A stretch of DNA of 64,000 nucleotides from Streptomyces sp. WP-1 (GTDB taxonomy: Bacteria; Actinomycetota; Actinomycetes; Streptomycetales; Streptomycetaceae): assembly GCF_030450125.1 (NCBI RefSeq), contig NZ_CP123923.1, positions 3,348,001 through 3,412,000 on the forward strand, given 5' to 3'. Both the position numbers and the translations under genes were made by a program. Within the stretch, counting starts at the first letter, position 1. Each line of letters starts with the position of its first letter. Below, one piece after another: positions 2,287 through 45,117 of this stretch. The notes under the pieces were generated by a model. The model ran no database searches and had not been told where the DNA came from. It saw only the letters and a list, made by a program, of their open reading frames with translations.

Positions 2287-4245
2287 CTAGGACTTGGGCC
2301 TGAAGGAGGCCGTCAGCGTCTTCCAGGTGCCCTTGCGCAGGTCGCCGTCCCAGTCACCGGCCTTCGCGGTGTACATCAGCGCGTACCCGAGGTGGTCGTT
2401 CACCACGAAGCCGCGGTCGATGGTGCGGTACCCGGTGCCGCCGTCGACGTAGGTGAACTCCCAGTCGGCCGTGTTCCAGTCCCGGTAGTCCGCCTCCTCG
2501 ATCCGGATCCGGTGGTACTGGGAGCGCACCATGTAGTGCTCCTGGCTCTTCCAGTCCGCCACCGGGTCGTCCTTGGGCGTGCCGGTCCAGGCCACGAGCA
2601 GCTTCTGCCCGTCGGGGCCGGTGTAGCGGTCACCGGCCGATCCGTGCGACTGGTACGACCATCCCTCGGGCAGCCCGATCGAGTAGCCCTGGCCGCCCTT
2701 GCGGGTGGAGACGGCGTGCGCGCTCCCGGCGTCGGCGGACGCGCTCGCGCTGACGTCCTTGCCGGTCCCGGTTCCGGACCCCGCTGCGGTGGGCGCCGAA
2801 CTCCCGCCGTCCGTACGGGTACCGGTGGCCGGGCCCTTGCTCCGGCCCGTCCCGGTGGACGCGCTCGCGCCGGCCGTGACCCGGGCGGCGCCCTTGTCGT
2901 CCTTGTCGTCACCGCCGCCGAGGGCGACGGCCAGCACGGTGCCGATCACCGCGAGGGCCACCACCACGGCCACGATCACCAGTGTGCGCCTGGGCACCAC
3001 GTCCGTGAGCGAGGCCTTCGGCACGGGCCTGGGCGACAGGTCCAGATCCGGCGGCGGCATCACGGGCCAGCCCGAACTCGGCTTCGCCGAACCGGCGTTG
3101 CCCGCCTTGTTCCTGGCGGGAGGCCCGGCGGGGGTCCCGGCGGAGTTCGACGCGGCGGCCGCACCCGGGCCCTTGCCGGGGCCACCGGAGGCCGGCGCGG
3201 AACCACCGCTCTTCGCCGCGTCCGCCGCCGCACCGGTACCGGCCGCGGCCCCCGCCGCCGCCTTGCGCACCGAACGCAGCGCGCCGCGCAGCTTCTCCGC
3301 GGCCTCCTCGCCGCGCTTGCCCTCGCCCGGCGGCGCGGGCAGCGGTACGACCCGGGTGGCGTCCAGGGGTTCCGGCTCGCGCGCGTGGATGACCTTGTCG
3401 AGCAGCACCCGCGCCCCGGCGTCGTCGAGCCGCTCGGCCGGGTCCTTGGTGAGCAGGCCGTAGATGACGTCCCGCAGCGGGCCCGCGTTCTTGGGCTCGT
3501 CCAGTTGCTCGGTCATCACCGCGGTGAGGGTGGCGATCGCCGAGCCCTTGTCGTACGGCGGCACCCCCTCGACCGCCGCGTACAGCAGCCCGCCGAGCGA
3601 CCACAGGTCGGCCGCGGGCCCCGGCTTGTGGCCGCGGGCGCGCTCCGGGGAGATGTAGGAGGGGGCGCCGACGAGCATGCCGGTCGAGGTGATGGACGGG
3701 TCGCCCTCGACCTGCGCGATGCCGAAGTCGGTGAGGACGACACGGCCGTCGTCCGCGATGAGCACGTTGGACGGCTTCACGTCCCGGTGCAGGATGCCCT
3801 CGCGGTGGGCGGAGCGCAGCACGTCGAGGACGGCGAGGCCGACCTCGGCGGCGCGCCGCGGCTCCAGCACGCCGTCCTCGCGGATGACCTCGGCGAGGGA
3901 CTTGCCCTCCACCAGCTCCATGACGATCCACGGCCGGTCGTCCTCGTCGACCACGTCGAAGACCGTCACCGCGCTGTTGTTGCGGATCCGGGCGATCGCC
4001 TTGGCCTCACGCAGGGTGCGCGTGATCAGGCGCCGCTTCTCCTCCTCGTCGATGTTCGTCGGGAACCGCAGCTCCTTGACGGCGACGGTGCGGCCGAGGG
4101 TCTCGTCCTCGGCGCGCCAGACCGTGCCCATGCCGCCGCGGCCCAGCACGTCTCCCAGCCGGTACCGCCCGGCGAGGAGACGCCGTCCGCTCTTGCCCTG
4201 CCGAGTCTCCTGACGAGATGTCCCCGCCCGCTCCGCCTCCGACAT
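2287..4245 (-). CDS. PknB-type transmembrane Ser/Thr protein kinase
   Basis: A 652-residue Hanks-type receptor kinase. The Gly loop is at 35-42 (GRGGMGTV), the ATP lysine is Lys57 (VAVK), catalytic HRD is at 153-155, DFG at 173-175, and GAPSYISPE forms the activation-segment end. An Ala/Gly/Pro-rich juxtamembrane linker follows, then a membrane helix around 419-444 and an extracellular Ser/Thr/Gly-rich stalk. The C-terminus is a compact domain of about 140 residues rich in Trp and Tyr. I place the start at 4245 (MSEAER) because GAGG lies 8 bases upstream; the open frame continues further 5' without a better ribosome site. It lacks PASTA repeats, so the extracellular ligand is unlikely to be muropeptide as in PknB. 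The downstream neighbour is a dead kinase of similar architecture, suggesting a signalling pair. Confidence 0.95.
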   Translation of the reverse strand: MSEAERAGTSRQETRQGKSGRRLLAGRYRLGDVLGRGGMGTVWRAEDETLGRTVAVKELRFPTNIDEEEKRRLITRTLREAKAIARIRNNSAVTVFDVVDEDDRPWIVMELVEGKSLAEVIREDGVLEPRRAAEVGLAVLDVLRSAHREGILHRDVKPSNVLIADDGRVVLTDFGIAQVEGDPSITSTGMLVGAPSYISPERARGHKPGPAADLWSLGGLLYAAVEGVPPYDKGSAIATLTAVMTEQLDEPKNAGPLRDVIYGLLTKDPAERLDDAGARVLLDKVIHAREPEPLDATRVVPLPAPPGEGKRGEEAAEKLRGALRSVRKAAAGAAAGTGAAADAAKSGGSAPASGGPGKGPGAAAASNSAGTPAGPPARNKAGNAGSAKPSSGWPVMPPPDLDLSPRPVPKASLTDVVPRRTLVIVAVVVALAVIGTVLAVALGGGDDKDDKGAARVTAGASASTGTGRSKGPATGTRTDGGSSAPTAAGSGTGTGKDVSASASADAGSAHAVSTRKGGQGYSIGLPEGWSYQSHGSAGDRYTGPDGQKLLVAWTGTPKDDPVADWKSQEHYMVRSQYHRIRIEEADYRDWNTADWEFTYVDGGTGYRTIDRGFVVNDHLGYALMYTAKAGDWDGDLRKGTWKTLTASFRPKS

Positions 4246-23946: not shown

Positions 23947-24326
23947 TCACGCGGACGGCCGGCGCGGCACCGCCGTGCTGGAACGCACCACCAGAGTGGT
24001 CGCCGGCTCCAGCCGGGTGGCGGCGCGTTCCTCGTGCGCGCCGCCCGGTTCGAGCACCGGGCGGGCCGCGGCCTCGGCCATCTCGGTCAGCGGCTGCCGT
24101 ACGGTCGTCAGCGGCGGGCCCACCCAGCGGGCCACCGGCAGATCGTCGAAGCCGACCACGCTGAGGTCCTCCGGGATGCGCAGCCCCCGCTCGCGCGCGG
24201 CCTCGTGCAGGCCCACGGCCTGGAGGTCGTTGCCCGCGAAGACCGCGGACGGCCGGTCCGGGCGGCGCAGCAGCTCCATGCCCAGCCGGTGGCCGGCGTC
24301 GCGGTGGAAGTCCCCGGCCACGATCA
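23947..24326 (-). pseudogene. LacI-family regulator remnant (C-terminal part)
   Basis: About 125 residues of the effector-binding domain of a LacI/GalR regulator, ending normally at 23947. The visible core is RPSAVFAGNDLQAVGLHEAA...IPEDLSVVGFDDLP...PLTTVRQPL. The DNA-binding domain and first half of the sugar-binding domain are missing. Homology stops around 24322-24340, where a GH3 remnant begins on the other strand. The surviving part is undamaged, so the loss may be recent. Confidence 0.88.
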
Positions 24327-24746
24327 GCGACCGCGTTCGCCCGGGAGGACTTCGCGGGATCCGAGGCGGAGATCCCGACGGACGGCGGGTACGACCTGTC
24401 GGTCACCGTCCGCAACACGGGTGGGCGCGCGGGCGCCGAGGTCGTCCAGCTGTGTCTGCACGACCCGGTGGCCTCGGTGACCCGCCCGGACATCCGGCTG
24501 CGGCCACCGGCGGGTGGAGCTGGCCCCCGGCGAGGCCCGCCGCCTCACCTTCCGCTTCCACACCGGCCTCGCCTCCTTCCCGGACCGCACGGGCACCCGG
24601 TCGTGGAGCCGGGCGAGCTGGAGCTGCGGCTGGCCGCGTCGAGCACGCACGTACGGCACCGGGCGCGGCTGCGGCCGACGGGGCCGGTGCGGACGGTGGG
24701 CACCGGGCGGGAGCTGCGCTGCCCGGCGGCGGTCACGGGGACCTGA
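24327..24746 (+). pseudogene. Glycoside hydrolase family 3 remnant (C-terminal FnIII-like domain)
   Basis: Only the last 140 or so residues of a GH3 beta-glucosidase/xylosidase remain. They start at FAREDFAGSEAEIPTDGG (24336) and run through LSVTVRNTGGRAGAEVVQL. The frame shifts near 24500-24505 to read HRRVELAPGEARRLTFRFH, then shifts back at 24600 to VVEPGELELRLAASS, ending at TGA 24744-24746. Both frameshifts and the missing catalytic domains make it non-functional. Confidence 0.88.
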
Positions 24747-24765: not shown

Positions 24766-24799
24766 ACACCCCGCCTCCGGAGACCCGGAGACGGGGTGT
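24766..24799. terminator. Terminator of the tRNA-Gly gene
   Basis: ACACCCCG (24766-24773) pairs with CGGGGTGT (24792-24799). An inner stem CTCCGG/CCGGAG (24775-24780, 24785-24790) closes a tight loop, with one internal mismatch. It begins 3 bases beyond the tRNA 3' end and also closes the GH3 remnant from the other side. Confidence 0.85.
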
Positions 24800-24802
24800 G
24801 AG

Positions 24803-24875
24803 TGGAGCGCCGGGCAGGCCTTGCACCTGCATCTCCCCGCAGGAAGCGGGACGTCTTTCCTTGGACCACCAACGC
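24803..24875 (-). tRNA. Unusual tRNA-Gly (anticodon UCC)
   Basis: A 73-base cloverleaf with encoded CCA. Acceptor GCGTTGG (24869-24875) pairs with CCGGCGC (24807-24813) through two G-U pairs. The D arm has a 3-bp stem and contains GG. Anticodon stem TCCCG/CGGGG closes loop CTTCCTG with anticodon TCC at 24842-24844. The variable loop has 4 bases. T stem GCAGG/CCTGC closes loop TGCAAGG. Bacterial GlyRS identity bases are kept (G1-C72, C2-G71, C35, C36, U73). The T loop has G at position 55 instead of U, so the pseudouridine and its contact with G18 are lost. It has its own promoter and terminator. The anticodon and Gly identity are clear; that it serves peptidoglycan rather than translation is my inference (see findings). 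Confidence 0.88.
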
Positions 24876-24917
24876 ACTGCGTTCGTACCGGCTTTCCGGC
24901 CCGTTCGCTGTGTGATG

Positions 24918-24947
24918 ATCATAGACCGAGGGAGACGGCGGCCGCAA
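24918..24947 (-). promoter_or_regulatory. Promoter of the tRNA-Gly gene
   Basis: On the minus strand TTGCGG (24942-24947), 18 bases, TATGAT (24918-24923). The start would be near 24911, leaving a precursor leader of about 35 bases before the tRNA. Confidence 0.7.
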
Positions 24948-24979: not shown

Positions 24980-25237
24980 CTACTCGGACGCGACCGCCTC
25001 GAAACGCCAGCGGTGCACGGCCCGCGTCACCAACCGCGGGTCCGGTTCGGGGAGTTCCGGCAGCGTCGCGTCGTACGCGTCGGCCCACCAGGTGATGACC
25101 AGCACCCGGTCGCCCGGCGCGCGGAAGGTCTCGCGGCGCAGCGGCTCCCGGTCGAGCCGCTGGGCGCGGGCCCAGTCGAGGAGGTCCCCGCCCCGGCCCT
25201 CGGCCGCGCGTGCCTCCCACATCAGCGCGACCGTCAT
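24980..25237 (-). CDS. Small conserved protein following tsaD
   Basis: An 85-residue protein, [17 protein letters not shown]...[11 protein letters not shown], of alpha/beta pattern. The N-terminus and the VLVITWW strand resemble small dimeric alpha-beta barrel (ABM-like) proteins, but I do not recognise a function. ATG 25237 overlaps the tsaD stop by 4 bases (ATGA), so it is translationally coupled to tsaD. Confidence 0.8.
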
Positions 25238-26322
25238 GAGTACAGGTTCTCCTTGCTGACCTCGTGCACATGGTCGTGGTGGCCCGGCACATGCGGGTCG
25301 GTGACCGGCAGGGAGGAGTCGGCGGACAGGTCCCAGCTGGAGGCGGCCCGGCCCCGGGCGACCATCTCGGCGCCGAGCGCGGCCACCATCGCGCCGTTGT
25401 CCGTGCACAGCTTGGGGCGCGGCACGCGCAGCCGGATGCCGGCCGCCTCGCAGCGCTCCTGGGCGAGGGCGCGCAGCCGGGAGTTGGCCGCCACCCCGCC
25501 GCCGATCATCAGATGGTCGACACCCTCGTCCTTGCAGGCGCGCACGGCCTTGCGGGTGAGCACGTCCACCACGGCCTCCTGGAAGGAAGCGGCCACATCG
25601 CGCACCGGGACCTCCTCGCCGGCCGCGCGCTTCGCCTCGATCCAGCGGGCCACGGCGGTCTTCAGGCCGGAGAAGGAGAAGTCGTACGCGGGGTCGCGCG
25701 GGCCGGTCAGACCGCGCGGGAAGCTGATCGCGGCCGGGTCGCCCTCCTTGGCGTACCGGTCGATGACCGGGCCGCCGGGGAAGCCCAGGTTCAGCACGCG
25801 GGCGATCTTGTCGAAGGCCTCGCCGGCCGCGTCGTCGATGGTCGCGCCCATCGGCCGGACGTCGGAGGTGATGTCGGAGGACAGCAGCAGCGAGGAGTGG
25901 CCGCCGGAGACCAGCAGCGCCATCGTCGGCTCGGGCAGCGGGCCGTGCTCCAGCTGGTCCACGCAGATGTGGGAGGCGAGGTGGTTGACGCCGTAGAGGG
26001 GCTTGCCGAGCGCGTAGGCGTACGCCTTGGCGGCGGAGACGCCGACCAGGAGGGCGCCCGCGAGTCCGGGGCCCGCGGTGACCGAGATGCCGTCGAGGTC
26101 CCTGGCGCTGACCCCGGCCTCCTTCAGGGCGCGGTCGATGGTCGGGACCATCGCCTCCAGGTGGGCGCGGGACGCCACCTCGGGGACGACGCCGCCGAAG
26201 CGGGCGTGCTCGTCCACGCTGGAGGCGACGGCGTCGGCCAGCAGGGTGGTGCCGCGCACGATGCCGACGCCGGTCTCGTCGCAGGAGGTCTCGATGCCGA
26301 GGACGAGGGGTTCGTCAGCCAT
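25234..26322 (-). CDS. tsaD: tRNA t6A threonylcarbamoyltransferase TsaD
   Basis: A 362-residue Kae1/Gcp protein that transfers the threonylcarbamoyl group to A37 of ANN-decoding tRNAs together with TsaB and TsaE. The N-terminal [14 protein letters not shown], the metal-binding His pair in [19 protein letters not shown] and [11 protein letters not shown] are all present. The tail after residue 330 is His-rich ([11 protein letters not shown]). It overlaps rimI upstream by 8 bases; the order tsaB-rimI-tsaD forms an operon. Confidence 0.98.
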
Positions 26323-26812
26323 TGATCTCGGTTCCTTGAACAGATGCGGAAGGGTCGGTCAGGCGCATCACCAGGGCGTCCACGTTCCCCGGCTGGTAGT
26401 AGCCGCGCCGGAACCCGATGGGGGCGAAGCCGAAGCGCTCGTACAGCTTCTGCGCGCGGATGTTGTCCACCCGGACTTCGAGCATCACCTCGTGGCACTC
26501 GAACGCGGTCGCCGCCCGCAGCAGATCGGTCAGCAGCCGGCCGCCGAGCCCCGAGCCCTGGAGGTCGCGGGCGACGGCGATGGTCTGGATGTCGGCGAGG
26601 TCGCCGGAGGCGGCGAGGCCCGCGTAGCCGACCACCCGGCCGGTGCCGTCCTCGGCCACGACATAGCGGCGGGTGGCCTCGGCGCCCCGGGAATGGGCCA
26701 GTTCGGACCAGAACATGCCCCGGGACCAGGCGTCCTCCGGGAACAGGTCCTTCTCCAGCTCCAGGACCGGGTCGATGTCCCACCAGCGCATCTCGCGCAG
26801 TTCGACGGTCAC
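26315..26812 (-). CDS. rimI: Ribosomal protein S18-alanine N-acetyltransferase
   Basis: A 165-residue GNAT acetyltransferase. The acetyl-CoA motif is [15 protein letters not shown], and the C-terminal [17 protein letters not shown] is typical of RimI, which acetylates the N-terminus of S18. GTG 26812 overlaps the tsaB stop (GTGA). The association with tsaB and tsaD is conserved in bacteria. Confidence 0.94.
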
Positions 26813-27465
26813 TTCGGGGTGACCACCTTGTAGTTCTTGGGGACCTGGGCGTCCGGGCGGCGCAGGTACAGCGGCCTCGGCGCGGGCAGTTCCTCCCCGG
26901 CGGCCAGCCGCTCGGCGGCGAGCGCGGCCAGCGCGGCGGCGGACACGTGCTCGGGCTCGTGGGCGCTCGGGAACATGTCCGGGTAGAGCAGGGCGCCCGC
27001 GCCGGCCGCCGGGAGCCCGGCGACCTGCTCGGCGATGTCGGCCGGGCGGTCGACGGCCGGGCCGGTCAGCCGGGTGCGGGAGTCGGCGTACGTCGCCCAG
27101 TAGACCTCCTTGCGCCGGGCGTCGGTCGCCACGACGAAGGGGCCCTTCTCGATGTCGGCGGCGTAGGCGAGGCCGTCCAGGGTGCACACGCCGTACACGG
27201 GGACGCCGAGGGCCAGGCCGAAGGTGTCGGCGGTCATCAGGCCGACGCGCAGTCCGGTGTAGGGGCCGGGGCCGGTGCCGACGACGATCCCGGTGACCGC
27301 CTCCAGCGTGAGGCCGGCCTCGGTGAGGACCCGGTCGACGGCCGGCAGCAGCAGCTCCCCGTGCCGGCGCGCGTCCACCTGCTTCGACGAGGCGATGACG
27401 TCCGTGCCGTCGTGCAGGGCGACGGTGACGGCGGGCGTTGCGGTATCCAGAGCGAGCAAGAGCAC
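26809..27465 (-). CDS. tsaB: tRNA t6A biosynthesis protein TsaB
   Basis: A 218-residue ASKHA-fold protein, partner of TsaD. N-terminus LLLALDTATPAVTVALHDG; conserved GTGPGPYTGLRVGL segment. It lacks the catalytic His pair of TsaD, as expected. GTG 27465 starts the operon tsaB-rimI-tsaD. Divergent from the YkuD-like gene. Confidence 0.96.
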   Translation of the reverse strand: MLLLALDTATPAVTVALHDGTDVIASSKQVDARRHGELLLPAVDRVLTEAGLTLEAVTGIVVGTGPGPYTGLRVGLMTADTFGLALGVPVYGVCTLDGLAYAADIEKGPFVVATDARRKEVYWATYADSRTRLTGPAVDRPADIAEQVAGLPAAGAGALLYPDMFPSAHEPEHVSAAALAALAAERLAAGEELPAPRPLYLRRPDAQVPKNYKVVTPK

Positions 27466-27578
27466 GCGAACAGCCTACGGCGCCCGCGCCTCGCGCACGG
27501 CCGCCCGGGGCGGACGGTCACCGGCTGCTACGGTCTGTACGAAGTACGACATATCGCGCACGGCGGAGGTGGAAGCAG

Positions 27579-28139
27579 GTGGCAGGGACCAGCTCGGGAA
27601 TCGTGGCCGGCCTCACCGCGGCGGCCGTCGGCGTGGTCGGCTTCCTGGCCTACGAGGCGTACGCGACGGTGCCGGCGGGGCTGGGCGCCCGTCCGGCGGC
27701 GAACGGCTCGCCCGGCGGGCAGGCCACGAAGGCGCCCCGGGACCGGCTCCACCCGACCGCCCTGCCGAGCGGGTCCGGCAAGGGTGAACGGGTGGTGTAC
27801 TCGGTGGACGACGACCGGGTCTGGCTGGTCGAGGCCGGCGACCGGGTGCTGCGCACCTTCCGCGTCCGGCCCGGCACGGTGGATCCGCCCCTCGGCACGT
27901 ACTGGGTGACCTCCCGCTCCCACGCCGTCACCGGCACGGACGGCATCCCCATCGAACACGTGGTCCGCTTCACCACGGTCGACGGCGTCACCATCGGCTT
28001 CTCCGCCCCCACCACCCCCGACGCCGTCCCGGCCCCCGACGCGGGCACCAGGACGGGCGGCATCCGCGAGACCCGCGCGGACGGCGAGGCGATGTGGAAC
28101 TTCGCGACGATCGGCGAACGGATCCTGGTGATCCGCTGA
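27579..28139 (+). CDS. Membrane-anchored YkuD-like protein without catalytic Cys
   Basis: A 186-residue protein. An uncleaved N-terminal helix (GIVAGLTAAAVGVVGFLAY) and linker lead to a domain that follows the start of the L,D-transpeptidase (YkuD) fold: RVVYSVDDDRVWLVEAGDRVL then PPLGTYWVTSRS. The HxxxxxxG...SxGC.R catalytic segment is absent and there is no Cys at all. It is probably a non-enzymatic wall-associated or structural relative. GTG 27579 has GGAGGTGG upstream. Confidence 0.82.
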   Translation: MAGTSSGIVAGLTAAAVGVVGFLAYEAYATVPAGLGARPAANGSPGGQATKAPRDRLHPTALPSGSGKGERVVYSVDDDRVWLVEAGDRVLRTFRVRPGTVDPPLGTYWVTSRSHAVTGTDGIPIEHVVRFTTVDGVTIGFSAPTTPDAVPAPDAGTRTGGIRETRADGEAMWNFATIGERILVIR

Positions 28140-28621
28140 GGGCTCCGCCTGGGATCGACACCTGGGGAACCGGCCGCCCCGGGGGACCGGCAGCCCTGCG
28201 AAGCGGGCGCGCCGGCGACCAGGAGCGTCGCTGGATGGTGGGCTGGATGTCGGGTGAGCTGGAGATCAGGTGACCTCGCGGTCCGGAGGGCCTGAGGGCC
28301 GGGCGACCCCGCGAGTCCGGCGGTGGCCCTGAGGCTCGGGCGACCTGCGGAGGGGACGGCGACTGAGGGCCGGGCACCTCCGCAAGAGACGGCAGACCCG
28401 GGGACCGGACAGCCCCGCGAGCACGGCAGGCCCATCCACTCGGGGCCGGAGGTGGCGGCGCGGCGGAGAGCGGGGAGCGGACTCCGCCCGGCGGGCAGGT
28501 GAGCCGGGCCGGAAGCCGGCAAGGCACGGCCCCGCCGCACTCCGGCCCTCCGCAGGCGGCCGAGCGCGCCGGAACCGGCTCTCGCGGCCCGGACGGACGG
28601 ACCCGCGCGGTTCCCCGAGGC
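28140..28621. other. Gene-free GC-rich stretch with degenerate repeats
   Basis: 480 bases with no supportable gene; the open frames here are Arg/Pro/Gly-rich and match nothing. It contains three imperfect copies of CTGAGGGCCGGGCGACC, starting at about 28292, 28329 and 28363. It may represent decayed sequence. Confidence 0.45.
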
Positions 28622-28774
28622 TTACGCCGCTCGTTTCGGGTGGTCGGCCCGGTGAGGGGCCCGGGGCTCCGGAGGGCGTGGTGGGCTGGAGAGGGTCGCC
28701 GCGGCGGCGCAGGACGCCAGGAGGACGTGCATGGGGACCGGGGCGGGGGCCTTCGGGGGGCGGGGGGCGGGCAT
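28622..28774 (-). CDS. Small Pro/Ala-rich protein, possible iron-regulated
   Basis: A 50-residue ORF, MPAPRPPKAPAPVPMHVLLA..., with one Cys and a weakly hydrophobic centre (HVLLASCAAAATL). The ATG 28774 has an excellent ribosome site (AGGAGG, 6-7 bases upstream), which is the main reason to accept it. A 20-bp palindrome similar to an iron box lies 26 bases further upstream. No family recognised; it could be a small membrane peptide. Confidence 0.55.
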   Translation of the reverse strand: MPAPRPPKAPAPVPMHVLLASCAAAATLSSPPRPPEPRAPHRADHPKRAA

Positions 28775-28800
28775 GGGCGCCTCCTGAGGTGCGGCGGCGT

Positions 28801-28820
28801 AGTTAGGCATGCCTGACTAC
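28801..28820. promoter_or_regulatory. Iron-box-like palindrome
   Basis: TAGTTAGGCATGCCTGACTA, a 20-bp palindrome with one mismatched pair. The core TTAGGC..GCCT.A resembles the operators of DmdR/IdeR iron regulators in actinobacteria. It sits just upstream of a 50-residue ORF with a strong ribosome site. Confidence 0.5.
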
Positions 28821-28897
28821 GGGCTGGACCCCATGTCATCACGCCCGGGTTGACCGCGCAACATCTTGCCGACGGCCTGTCGGAAAACCGGCCCGGG

Positions 28898-29428
28898 TCA
28901 GGCCGTGAGGGTCTCCAGGCCCGCGTCGGCCCAGCGCGCGCCGAGCCCCGTGAGGATCACGTGCCGCACCTCGTCCGCGGTGTCGCCGACCGCGCGGTGG
29001 ATGACGAGCTGGAGCCGGTCCTCGGTCAGCTCCTCGACCTTGCCCTCGCCCCACTCCACGACGATCACCGAGTCGGACAGCGAGACATCGAGGTCCAGGT
29101 CCTCCATCTCGTCCAGACCGCCGCCGAGCCGGTACGCGTCCACATGCACGAGCGGCGGGCCGTCGACGAGGGACGGATGCACCCGGGCGATCACGAAGGT
29201 CGGCGAGGTGACCGCGCCCCGCACCCCGAGCCCCTCCCCCAGGCCCCGGGTCAGCGTGGTCTTGCCCGCGCCCAGTTCCCCGGAGAGCATCACCAGGTCC
29301 CCGGCGCGCAGCAGCTTGGCGAGGCGCCGGCCCAGCTCGCGCATCTGCTCGGGCGAGGTGATCGTCAGCCGGGTCCCGGCCGGGTCGTGCTCAGCGGGGT
29401 CGTACGGTGCTGCTGCTGGACGTTCCAT
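28898..29428 (-). CDS. tsaE: tRNA t6A biosynthesis ATPase TsaE
   Basis: A 176-residue P-loop ATPase that supports the TsaB-TsaD cycle. Walker A is GELGAGKTT; SPTFVIARVH, HVDAYRLG and VVEWGEG follow. ATG 29428 lies inside the end of the upstream hydrolase gene (38-base overlap), suggesting coupled translation. Separated from tsaB/D by about 1.4 kb. Confidence 0.95.
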   Translation of the reverse strand: MERPAAAPYDPAEHDPAGTRLTITSPEQMRELGRRLAKLLRAGDLVMLSGELGAGKTTLTRGLGEGLGVRGAVTSPTFVIARVHPSLVDGPPLVHVDAYRLGGGLDEMEDLDLDVSLSDSVIVVEWGEGKVEELTEDRLQLVIHRAVGDTADEVRHVILTGLGARWADAGLETLTA

Positions 29429-45009: not shown

Positions 45010-45117
45010 AGTTCTTCTCCTGTGTGTCTGCCCCGGCCGTGTCAGGTACCGGGGTCAGTATCCGAGCGAGCGGTTGCTCGTCGGAGATCCGGGAGCAGTC
45101 CCGAAGGGTGGCTCCCG

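Follow-up and report, generated by a model that had tools for sequence, protein, structure and literature searches.

A tRNA-Gly-like RNA family of Streptomyces with kept glycine identity bases and an altered decoding loop: a candidate glycine acceptor outside translation

The RNA gene and its transcription unit

The window, i.e., the whole stretch of 64,000 nucleotides of Streptomyces sp. WP-1 DNA that was analyzed, carries on its minus strand, at positions 24803-24875, a gene that ARAGORN calls as tRNA-Gly(tcc) with exactly these coordinates. A tRNA-Gly(UCC)-like cloverleaf had been recognized at this place by the first-pass annotation, which gave no strand, and both ARAGORN and Infernal agree with it. 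The tRNA-like body is 70 nt long (24806..24875, minus strand; from ARAGORN, the Rfam tRNA match, and the family alignment A1), with G1 at 24875 and U73 at 24806, and is followed by an encoded CCA (24803..24805, minus strand; from the ARAGORN read-out and the family sites). With Infernal, the gene reaches 37.3 bits against the Rfam tRNA model (RF00005), above its cut-off of 29, and is the lowest-scoring of the 67 tRNA matches in the genome, the next lowest having 50.8 bits; it is absent from the Rfam scan of the whole window at the gathering threshold. Elsewhere in the window, Rfam recognizes an L17 ribosomal protein leader (45028-45084, minus strand, 69.7 bits), and ARAGORN lists, at 3254-3344 (minus strand), a tRNA whose type is undetermined and whose anticodon has 4 bases; it has no Rfam match at the gathering threshold and is probably spurious.

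Direct reading of the RNA gives an acceptor stem GCGUUGG/CCGGCGC with two U-G pairs, a D stem of 3 bp with the D-loop CAAGGAAA, in which GG is retained, an anticodon loop CUUCCUG with U at position 37, a variable loop AGAU, a T stem GCAGG/CCUGC, a T-loop UGCAAGG (U54-G55-C56-A57-A58), and U73, after which the encoded CCA begins. The G55 T-loop, the 3-bp D stem, the 4-base variable loop, the two G-U acceptor pairs, and U73 named in the earlier annotation are therefore all present; the strand and U37 had escaped it. Regarding U37, a purine stands at this position in 51 of 52 distinct tRNAs of the same genome (ARAGORN read-outs; distinctness judged on the first 50 nt alone, and taken from the genome stretches examined, where ARAGORN does not call the W-type tRNA-Gly discussed below), the sole exception being the window gene. 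The U54-U55-C56 of a translating tRNA-Gly is replaced, with UGCAAGG found in the window and in all 30 loci retrieved by BLAST. A covariance-model search finds two copies of the RNA family in this genome.

The signals around the body suggest a transcription unit of its own. A -10-like hexamer, TATGAT (24918..24923, minus strand), is recognized from the sequence and from the statistics of the family, in which 158 of 183 sites have a TAnnnT hexamer at a distance of 30-60 nt on the 5' side of the core, vs 16 of 1749 control stretches; the family also commonly has T at 5 and G at 4 bases ahead of the hexamer, a pattern that the window site matches only in part. From the transcription start that this hexamer would set, a 5' leader of ∼36 nt (24876..24911, minus strand) would follow, with a small hairpin CCGG-AAAG-CCGG at 24888-24899, and leaders resembling it by eye, often with a small hairpin, are found at other family sites. 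Downstream, the fold of the 150-nt unit contains a terminator-like, GC-rich hairpin of 15 bp without a long U run (24766..24799, minus strand). The 150-nt unit folds unusually well (z-score -4.25, 0 of 200 shuffles as good); for the 73 nt of the RNA taken alone the fold is not unusual (z -1.06, 29 of 200 shuffles as good). At the family sites, the 60 nt 3' of the core have a median fold of -36.5 kcal/mol, vs -22.2 kcal/mol in control stretches. The claim that the gene has its own promoter and terminator consequently holds at the level of the family, in the hexamer and fold statistics, and less so at the window site itself, where a single-site consensus scan, whose terminator rule needs a T run, flagged neither the hexamer nor the hairpin.

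Between sites, the core is 96% identical, whereas the adjoining 40 nt are 39-40% and the farther flanks 30-33% identical (4000 random pairs, 170 sites). The base after U73 is C at all 183 sites, and the complete CCA is encoded at 75 of them. With genes called by a simple script based on G+C by codon position, the nearest upstream gene shares the strand of the RNA at 116 sites and is on the opposite strand at 58, and the nearest downstream gene lies on the opposite strand at 117 and on the same strand at 53. This arrangement argues for a stand-alone unit; together with the promoter and terminator signals, the conserved core, and the presence or absence at tsaD described below, it indicates that the RNA gene is transcribed independently and is gained and lost. 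The orientation of the downstream genes led us to reject a cis-acting riboswitch or leader. A small protein was also rejected: a frame is open through the core at some sites, but 69-nt variants shift it and the changes in the core are compensatory.

Distribution and genomic neighborhood

That the RNA family is real is near certain. A BLAST query of 101 nt matched 25 of 61 Streptomyces genomes, several times per genome in some, with many of the matches confined to the tRNA body, and the covariance model R1 agrees with it on the same 25 genomes among these first 61. Over the genus, R1 gives strong matches in 108 of 199 genomes, weak matches only in 54, and none in 37, where the figure of 108 could be low, given that this search used stricter filters and 25 candidates scored per genome, and where two genomes with intermediate scores (G025 and G167) are placed with those that lack the family. 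The weak matches of about 42 bits that were read (L113-L115) proved to be a different tRNA-Gly, and the other genomes with weak matches are assumed to be likewise. In a sample of 150 genomes of the bacterial family (38 Streptomyces and 112 others), R1 exceeds 70 bits in 3 of the 112 non-Streptomyces genomes (G203, G279, and G294). The RNA is also found on 70 plasmid records, 68 from Streptomyces and 2 from Streptantibioticus, at up to 8 places on one record. It has no match (E up to 1e-5) in a phage collection, and the exact pattern is not found in viral contigs; a phage-borne tRNA was rejected on these empty searches. Copies occur at many loci, with 6 strong matches as the highest number in one genome among the matches listed (G091), and in a few loci they are clustered 1.2-2.1 kb apart, among the stretches listed.

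The sites used for conservation were gathered by BLAST, by the covariance model, and by an exact pattern, with D-loop and T-arm fixed, that gave at least 120 stretches in contigs, 80 of them listed. After sites with identical flanks were dropped, the 204 matches were reduced to 184 sites, of which 183 served for the promoter, terminator, and CCA counts; several of the loci come from further records of genomes that the genome sample contains too. A search of the literature, mostly open-access papers and without their supplements, brought up no text that we recognized as a description of the RNA family or of the W-type tRNA, and PMC6850298 and PMC4307249 contributed nothing further. This tRNA-shaped RNA family, often multi-copy and present in about half of the sampled Streptomyces, is apparently undescribed.

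In the window, the nearest upstream gene of known family is tsaD (25234..26322, minus strand), on the same strand as the RNA, and the region 25234-29428 holds tsaD, a second gene of the TsaD family (probably tsaB), and tsaE. The products of these genes act in t6A37 synthesis. This neighborhood is probably due to chance, because the RNA is missing from 25 of the 30 tsaD loci fetched (present in 5), and four of them (L326, L327, L328, and L336) lack it with the flanking neighbors unchanged on both sides, as judged by eye. On the downstream side, the stretch 23950-24740 contains part of a LacI-type regulator and, by eye, of a glycosidase-like frame, apparently broken genes.

The first-pass annotation had stressed cell-wall neighbors. 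An LCP gene and a polysaccharide deacetylase gene are indeed confirmed in the window; this neighborhood is particular to the window site, though, and the other sites are scattered. Recurring neighbor genes are found mainly where related species share one site, the largest cluster being TsaD with its paralogue (23 loci), followed by clusters of 12 and 11 loci. The third of these is the LCP gene, a name given via the window member, which is directly upstream of the RNA in 8 of its 11 loci, on the same strand and at 67-188 nt (L043, L079, L084, L095, L174, L177, L206, and L211); it is the only recurring cell-wall link and speaks in favor of the earlier proposal. Among 206 representatives of the nearest neighbors, one per cluster, so that repeats of one cluster are invisible in the Pfam counts, no family dominates, and the commonest, the MFS transporters, accounts for 7/130. 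No toxin or regulator family stands out beside the copies in the first 25 families listed. As for signs of a mobile element, the unit is present or absent at tsaD, and none of the families in that same list that belong to transposases or integrases is represented by more than one protein beside the copies. Around the divergent relatives of the RNA, 24 proteins include no family with more than two members.

Conserved cloverleaf, glycine determinants, and decoding loop

In alignment A1, 96.9% of the cells assigned to the cloverleaf stems are paired, and covariation is modest: both partners have changed at 3 pairs, a number reached in 29 of 500 shuffles, and the score is 0.176 vs 0.131 (0/500). 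When divergent relatives are added (alignment A4), 95.8% of the cells are paired and covariation becomes clear, with both partners changed at 9 pairs (reached in 3 of 500 shuffles) and a score of 0.404 vs 0.189 for the shuffled alignments (0/500); in both cases the shuffle controls leave the relatedness of the sequences in place. Of the 30 loci retrieved by BLAST, 26 are recognized by ARAGORN as tRNA-Gly and 4 escape it.

The bases by which GlyRS recognizes its tRNA are G1-C72, C2-G71, U73, C35, and C36, with U16 read additionally by the Thermus enzyme (PMC9976931). Across 47 distinct cores (184 sites), C2-G71, G3-C70, and U73 are invariant, G1-C72 is found in 46, the exception having a divergent 5' part, and CC is present in the apical loop of the anticodon arm of all 47; U16 is not evident in the RNA family. 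The presence of GlyRS identity bases, which the first-pass annotation had reported for the window gene, is thus a property of the whole family (46-47 of 47 cores). Moreover, A51-U63 occurs in 13 of 13 distinct A1 cores, position 49-65 is G-C in 13 of 13, and the T-loop of the family keeps U54, C56, and A58 along with G55. The invariance of the D-loop and the T-arm comes partly by construction; the search pattern covers neither the acceptor bases nor the CC.

Apart from its CC, the loop of the anticodon arm is variable (UUCCU, UUCCC, UUCCG, AACC, AUCC, UGCC, AGCC, CUCCAA, and others), and the 7-nt anticodon loop with U33 and a purine at 37 is not kept, since some relatives have loops of 4 or 6 nt, or A at position 33. 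A kissing contact of the UUCC loop with the GGAA of the D-loop was considered as the cause of the conserved CC and was rejected, because two divergent relatives (L108 and L109) retain the CC though their D-loops are without GGAA; for the same reason, the CC would have an identity role rather than one in a loop-loop contact. Read from the sequences, the family keeps the GlyRS identity bases while its decoding loop is broken down. Charging by GlyRS is likely on this basis, and the loops of 4 or 6 nt, the A in place of U33, or the pyrimidine at position 37 would speak against ordinary decoding. The idea that the RNA is charged with glycine and yet not used by the ribosome, already put forward in the first-pass annotation, appears a fair one, given G55, the kept identity bases, and the lost decoding features.

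Relatives of a second type are found in genus g14, where matches to R2 are strong (E below 1e-12) in 17 of 38 genomes, with up to 8 per genome and some in tandem; R2 was built with L108-L112, three g14 RNAs included, and these matches are accordingly not independent of it. Seven g14 RNAs (L110-L112 and L362-L365) have the same acceptor ends and the G55 T-loop, but a UUC loop without C35; they are multi-copy, tandem, and followed by terminator-like hairpins. Among the R2 matches outside the family in the class search, the ten that were read (L352-L361) are all tRNAs by ARAGORN, namely eight tRNA-Gly(UCC), one tRNA-Val, and one tRNA-Arg. The two types, with an NCC loop in Streptomyces and a few others vs a UUC loop in g14, share the G55 T-loop and the G1-C72/C2-G71/G3-C70/U73 acceptor; the UUC type weakens an account based purely on glycine and hints at a wider class. 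A tentative proposal is that they form a Streptomycetaceae superfamily of autonomous, multi-copy tRNA-like RNAs, of glycine and UUC-loop types, which might keep a pool of aminoacyl-tRNA out of reach of the ribosome, for use in accessory chemistry of a non-ribosomal kind.

Candidate roles and comparison with known systems

Any account of this RNA has to accommodate the family and its structure, the promoter and terminator signals, the patchiness, the kept GlyRS bases, a decoding loop that has broken down, and the absence of any neighbor shared by most sites, all of which are established at the level of sequence. The best single explanation, to which we give a probability of about 0.45, is that the RNA is charged with glycine by GlyRS, does not decode, and has its glycine used outside translation. 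In this scheme, an accessory unit of ∼200 bp, with promoter, leader hairpin, cloverleaf, and terminator, whose place and number differ among Streptomyces genomes, would be transcribed, and the RNA would be charged with glycine by GlyRS, would bind EF-Tu poorly through G55 and A51-U63, and would deliver its glycine to a non-ribosomal ligase. Since the CCA is encoded at only some of the sites, charging at the others would need CCA addition. The change at A51-U63 is among those that weaken EF-Tu binding in staphylococcal tRNA-Gly (PMC4052509). The most natural guess for the end user would be a FemABX-type ligase of the cell wall or of an antibiotic pathway, although nothing points to a particular one; DhpK and Orf11, both FemX-like, draw on Gly-tRNA in pathways to antibiotics (PMC12945691). 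Several points speak against the glycine-acceptor reading: U16 is not evident, the g14 relatives have a UUC loop, and the searches described below give no linked or correlated ligase gene. Finally, the D-loop and the T-loop match the glycine determinants in invariance, in part as imposed by the search pattern, so that an unknown RNA-binding partner could explain the conservation.

That last observation also feeds the main rival, which we regard as somewhat unlikely: a regulatory or decoy RNA, in which a mimic of tRNA-Gly binds GlyRS, a tRNA-modifying or -attacking protein, or mRNAs through its UUCC loop, and glycine is not passed on. Multi-copy and patchy occurrence, with the 6 strong matches listed for G091 and the 8 places on one plasmid record, would fit a dose dependence, the unit is stand-alone and sRNA-like, conservation elsewhere in the molecule equals that of the identity bases, and the tRNA-Other of Bacillus cereus, a pseudo-tRNA within a regulatory RNA, provides a precedent (PMC3399842). 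However, a loop that varies except for its CC is ill suited as a base-pairing seed, and no toxin or regulator family is prominent among the neighbor families listed. The same patchy, multi-copy, scattered occurrence, with some clusters and plasmid copies, could alternatively be that of a decaying or selfish tRNA gene copy without a cell function, and the window copy does lie near a degenerate region (the LacI-type regulator part and the glycosidase-like frame seen by eye). Yet the core identity of 96%, the compensatory changes, and the conserved promoter element, set against flanks of 30-40%, imply sharp purifying selection on the RNA itself, and the neighbor families listed hold no recurrent transposase or integrase; this origin is improbable.

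The first-pass annotation had gone further, proposing a dedicated Gly-tRNA donor for FemX and the Gly bridge of peptidoglycan. A Gly bridge is present throughout Streptomyces. In favor of this role are the G55, the UCC anticodon, and A51-U63, which resemble the staphylococcal peptidoglycan tRNA-Gly (PMC8007984, PMC4052509), the FemAB genes of the same genome, and the LCP gene, directly upstream at 8 sites and also near the RNA in the window. But the RNA is less widespread than the Fem ligases that would build the bridge: all 199 of 199 Streptomyces genomes have FemAB (PF02388), irrespective of the RNA, which has its strong matches in 108 of them. The number of FemAB matches, which are fragments, two per gene in the genome of the window, is alike with and without the RNA (mean 3.65 vs 3.59; Mann-Whitney p 0.88). 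Furthermore, tblastn (E up to 1e-5) finds no FemAB match in 1,006,099 bases around the copies L116-L239, and no ligase gene is linked or correlated with the RNA in the neighbor families listed, the FemAB counts, and the tblastn search. A FemAB linkage was rejected on these results. In addition, the D-loop GG is kept here and G18-G19 is replaced in the staphylococcal tRNAs (PMC4052509), and the G55-bearing W-type tRNA-Gly, matching in all 61 Streptomyces searched, is a better candidate. A FemX-dedicated donor is, on balance, rather improbable. With the glycine acceptor used outside translation retained as the preferred reading, an RNA that keeps its charging signals and loses its decoding loop, in roughly half of the sampled Streptomyces and often in several copies, would make a clean study system.

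Among known systems, tRNA-Other of Bacillus cereus is likewise tRNA-shaped and described as non-functional in translation; it differs in being a single pseudo-tRNA beside a genomic island, and the abstract that describes it mentions no glycine likeness (PMC3399842). A canonical tRNA-Gly(UCC) shares the cloverleaf, U73, G1-C72, C2-G71, the UCC anticodon, and a score above the Rfam tRNA cut-off, whereas the window RNA departs from it by G55 in place of U55, U37, the 3-bp D stem, and the weakest tRNA match of its genome.

The staphylococcal peptidoglycan tRNA-Gly species carry the letters GUGC in the T-loop and a pyrimidine at position 37. The window RNA resembles these non-proteinogenic tRNA-Gly(UCC) of the pentaglycine bridge in its UCC anticodon, GlyRS bases, altered T-loop, and A51-U63 (PMC4052509, PMC8007984, and PMC9976931). 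Of the two weak EF-Tu pairs of the staphylococcal type, A49-U65 and A51-U63, only the second is present, and the replacement of G18-G19, part of the definition in PMC4052509, is not found in the D-loop given above. The RNA thus differs in the D-loop GG, the G-C at 49-65, and the 3-bp D stem, in the anticodon loop of its relatives, down to 6 or 4 nt, and in its patchy multi-copy units with their own promoter signal and no FemAB correlation.

Nearer at hand, the W-type tRNA-Gly(UCC), which lies outside the window (G000:C1:4229929-4230000, minus strand; L277 and L292), is like the window RNA in its G55 T-loop (UGCRA), A51-U63, and glycine identity bases, and unlike it in adjoining a tRNA-Gly(GCC) and in having A18, a bulged T stem, and a normal A37, letters read in this genome and in 12 others (L240-L251). 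BLAST with L113, a relative of the W-type, gives matches of 83-93% identity in 61/61 Streptomyces genomes. In the class sample, a strict G55 pattern finds the W-type in all 28 Streptomyces and in none of the 268 other genomes, and in the sample of the bacterial family it does so in all 38 Streptomyces and in 48 of the 112 others; an extra match in G289 was discarded as not tRNA-like. Tandem duplicates or triplicates occur in several Streptomyces (L240-L243, L245, and L248). For a cell-wall tRNA-Gly of Streptomyces, if there is one, the W-type would therefore be a better candidate than the window RNA, and it can concretely be proposed as the equivalent of the tRNA that serves the cell wall in staphylococci.
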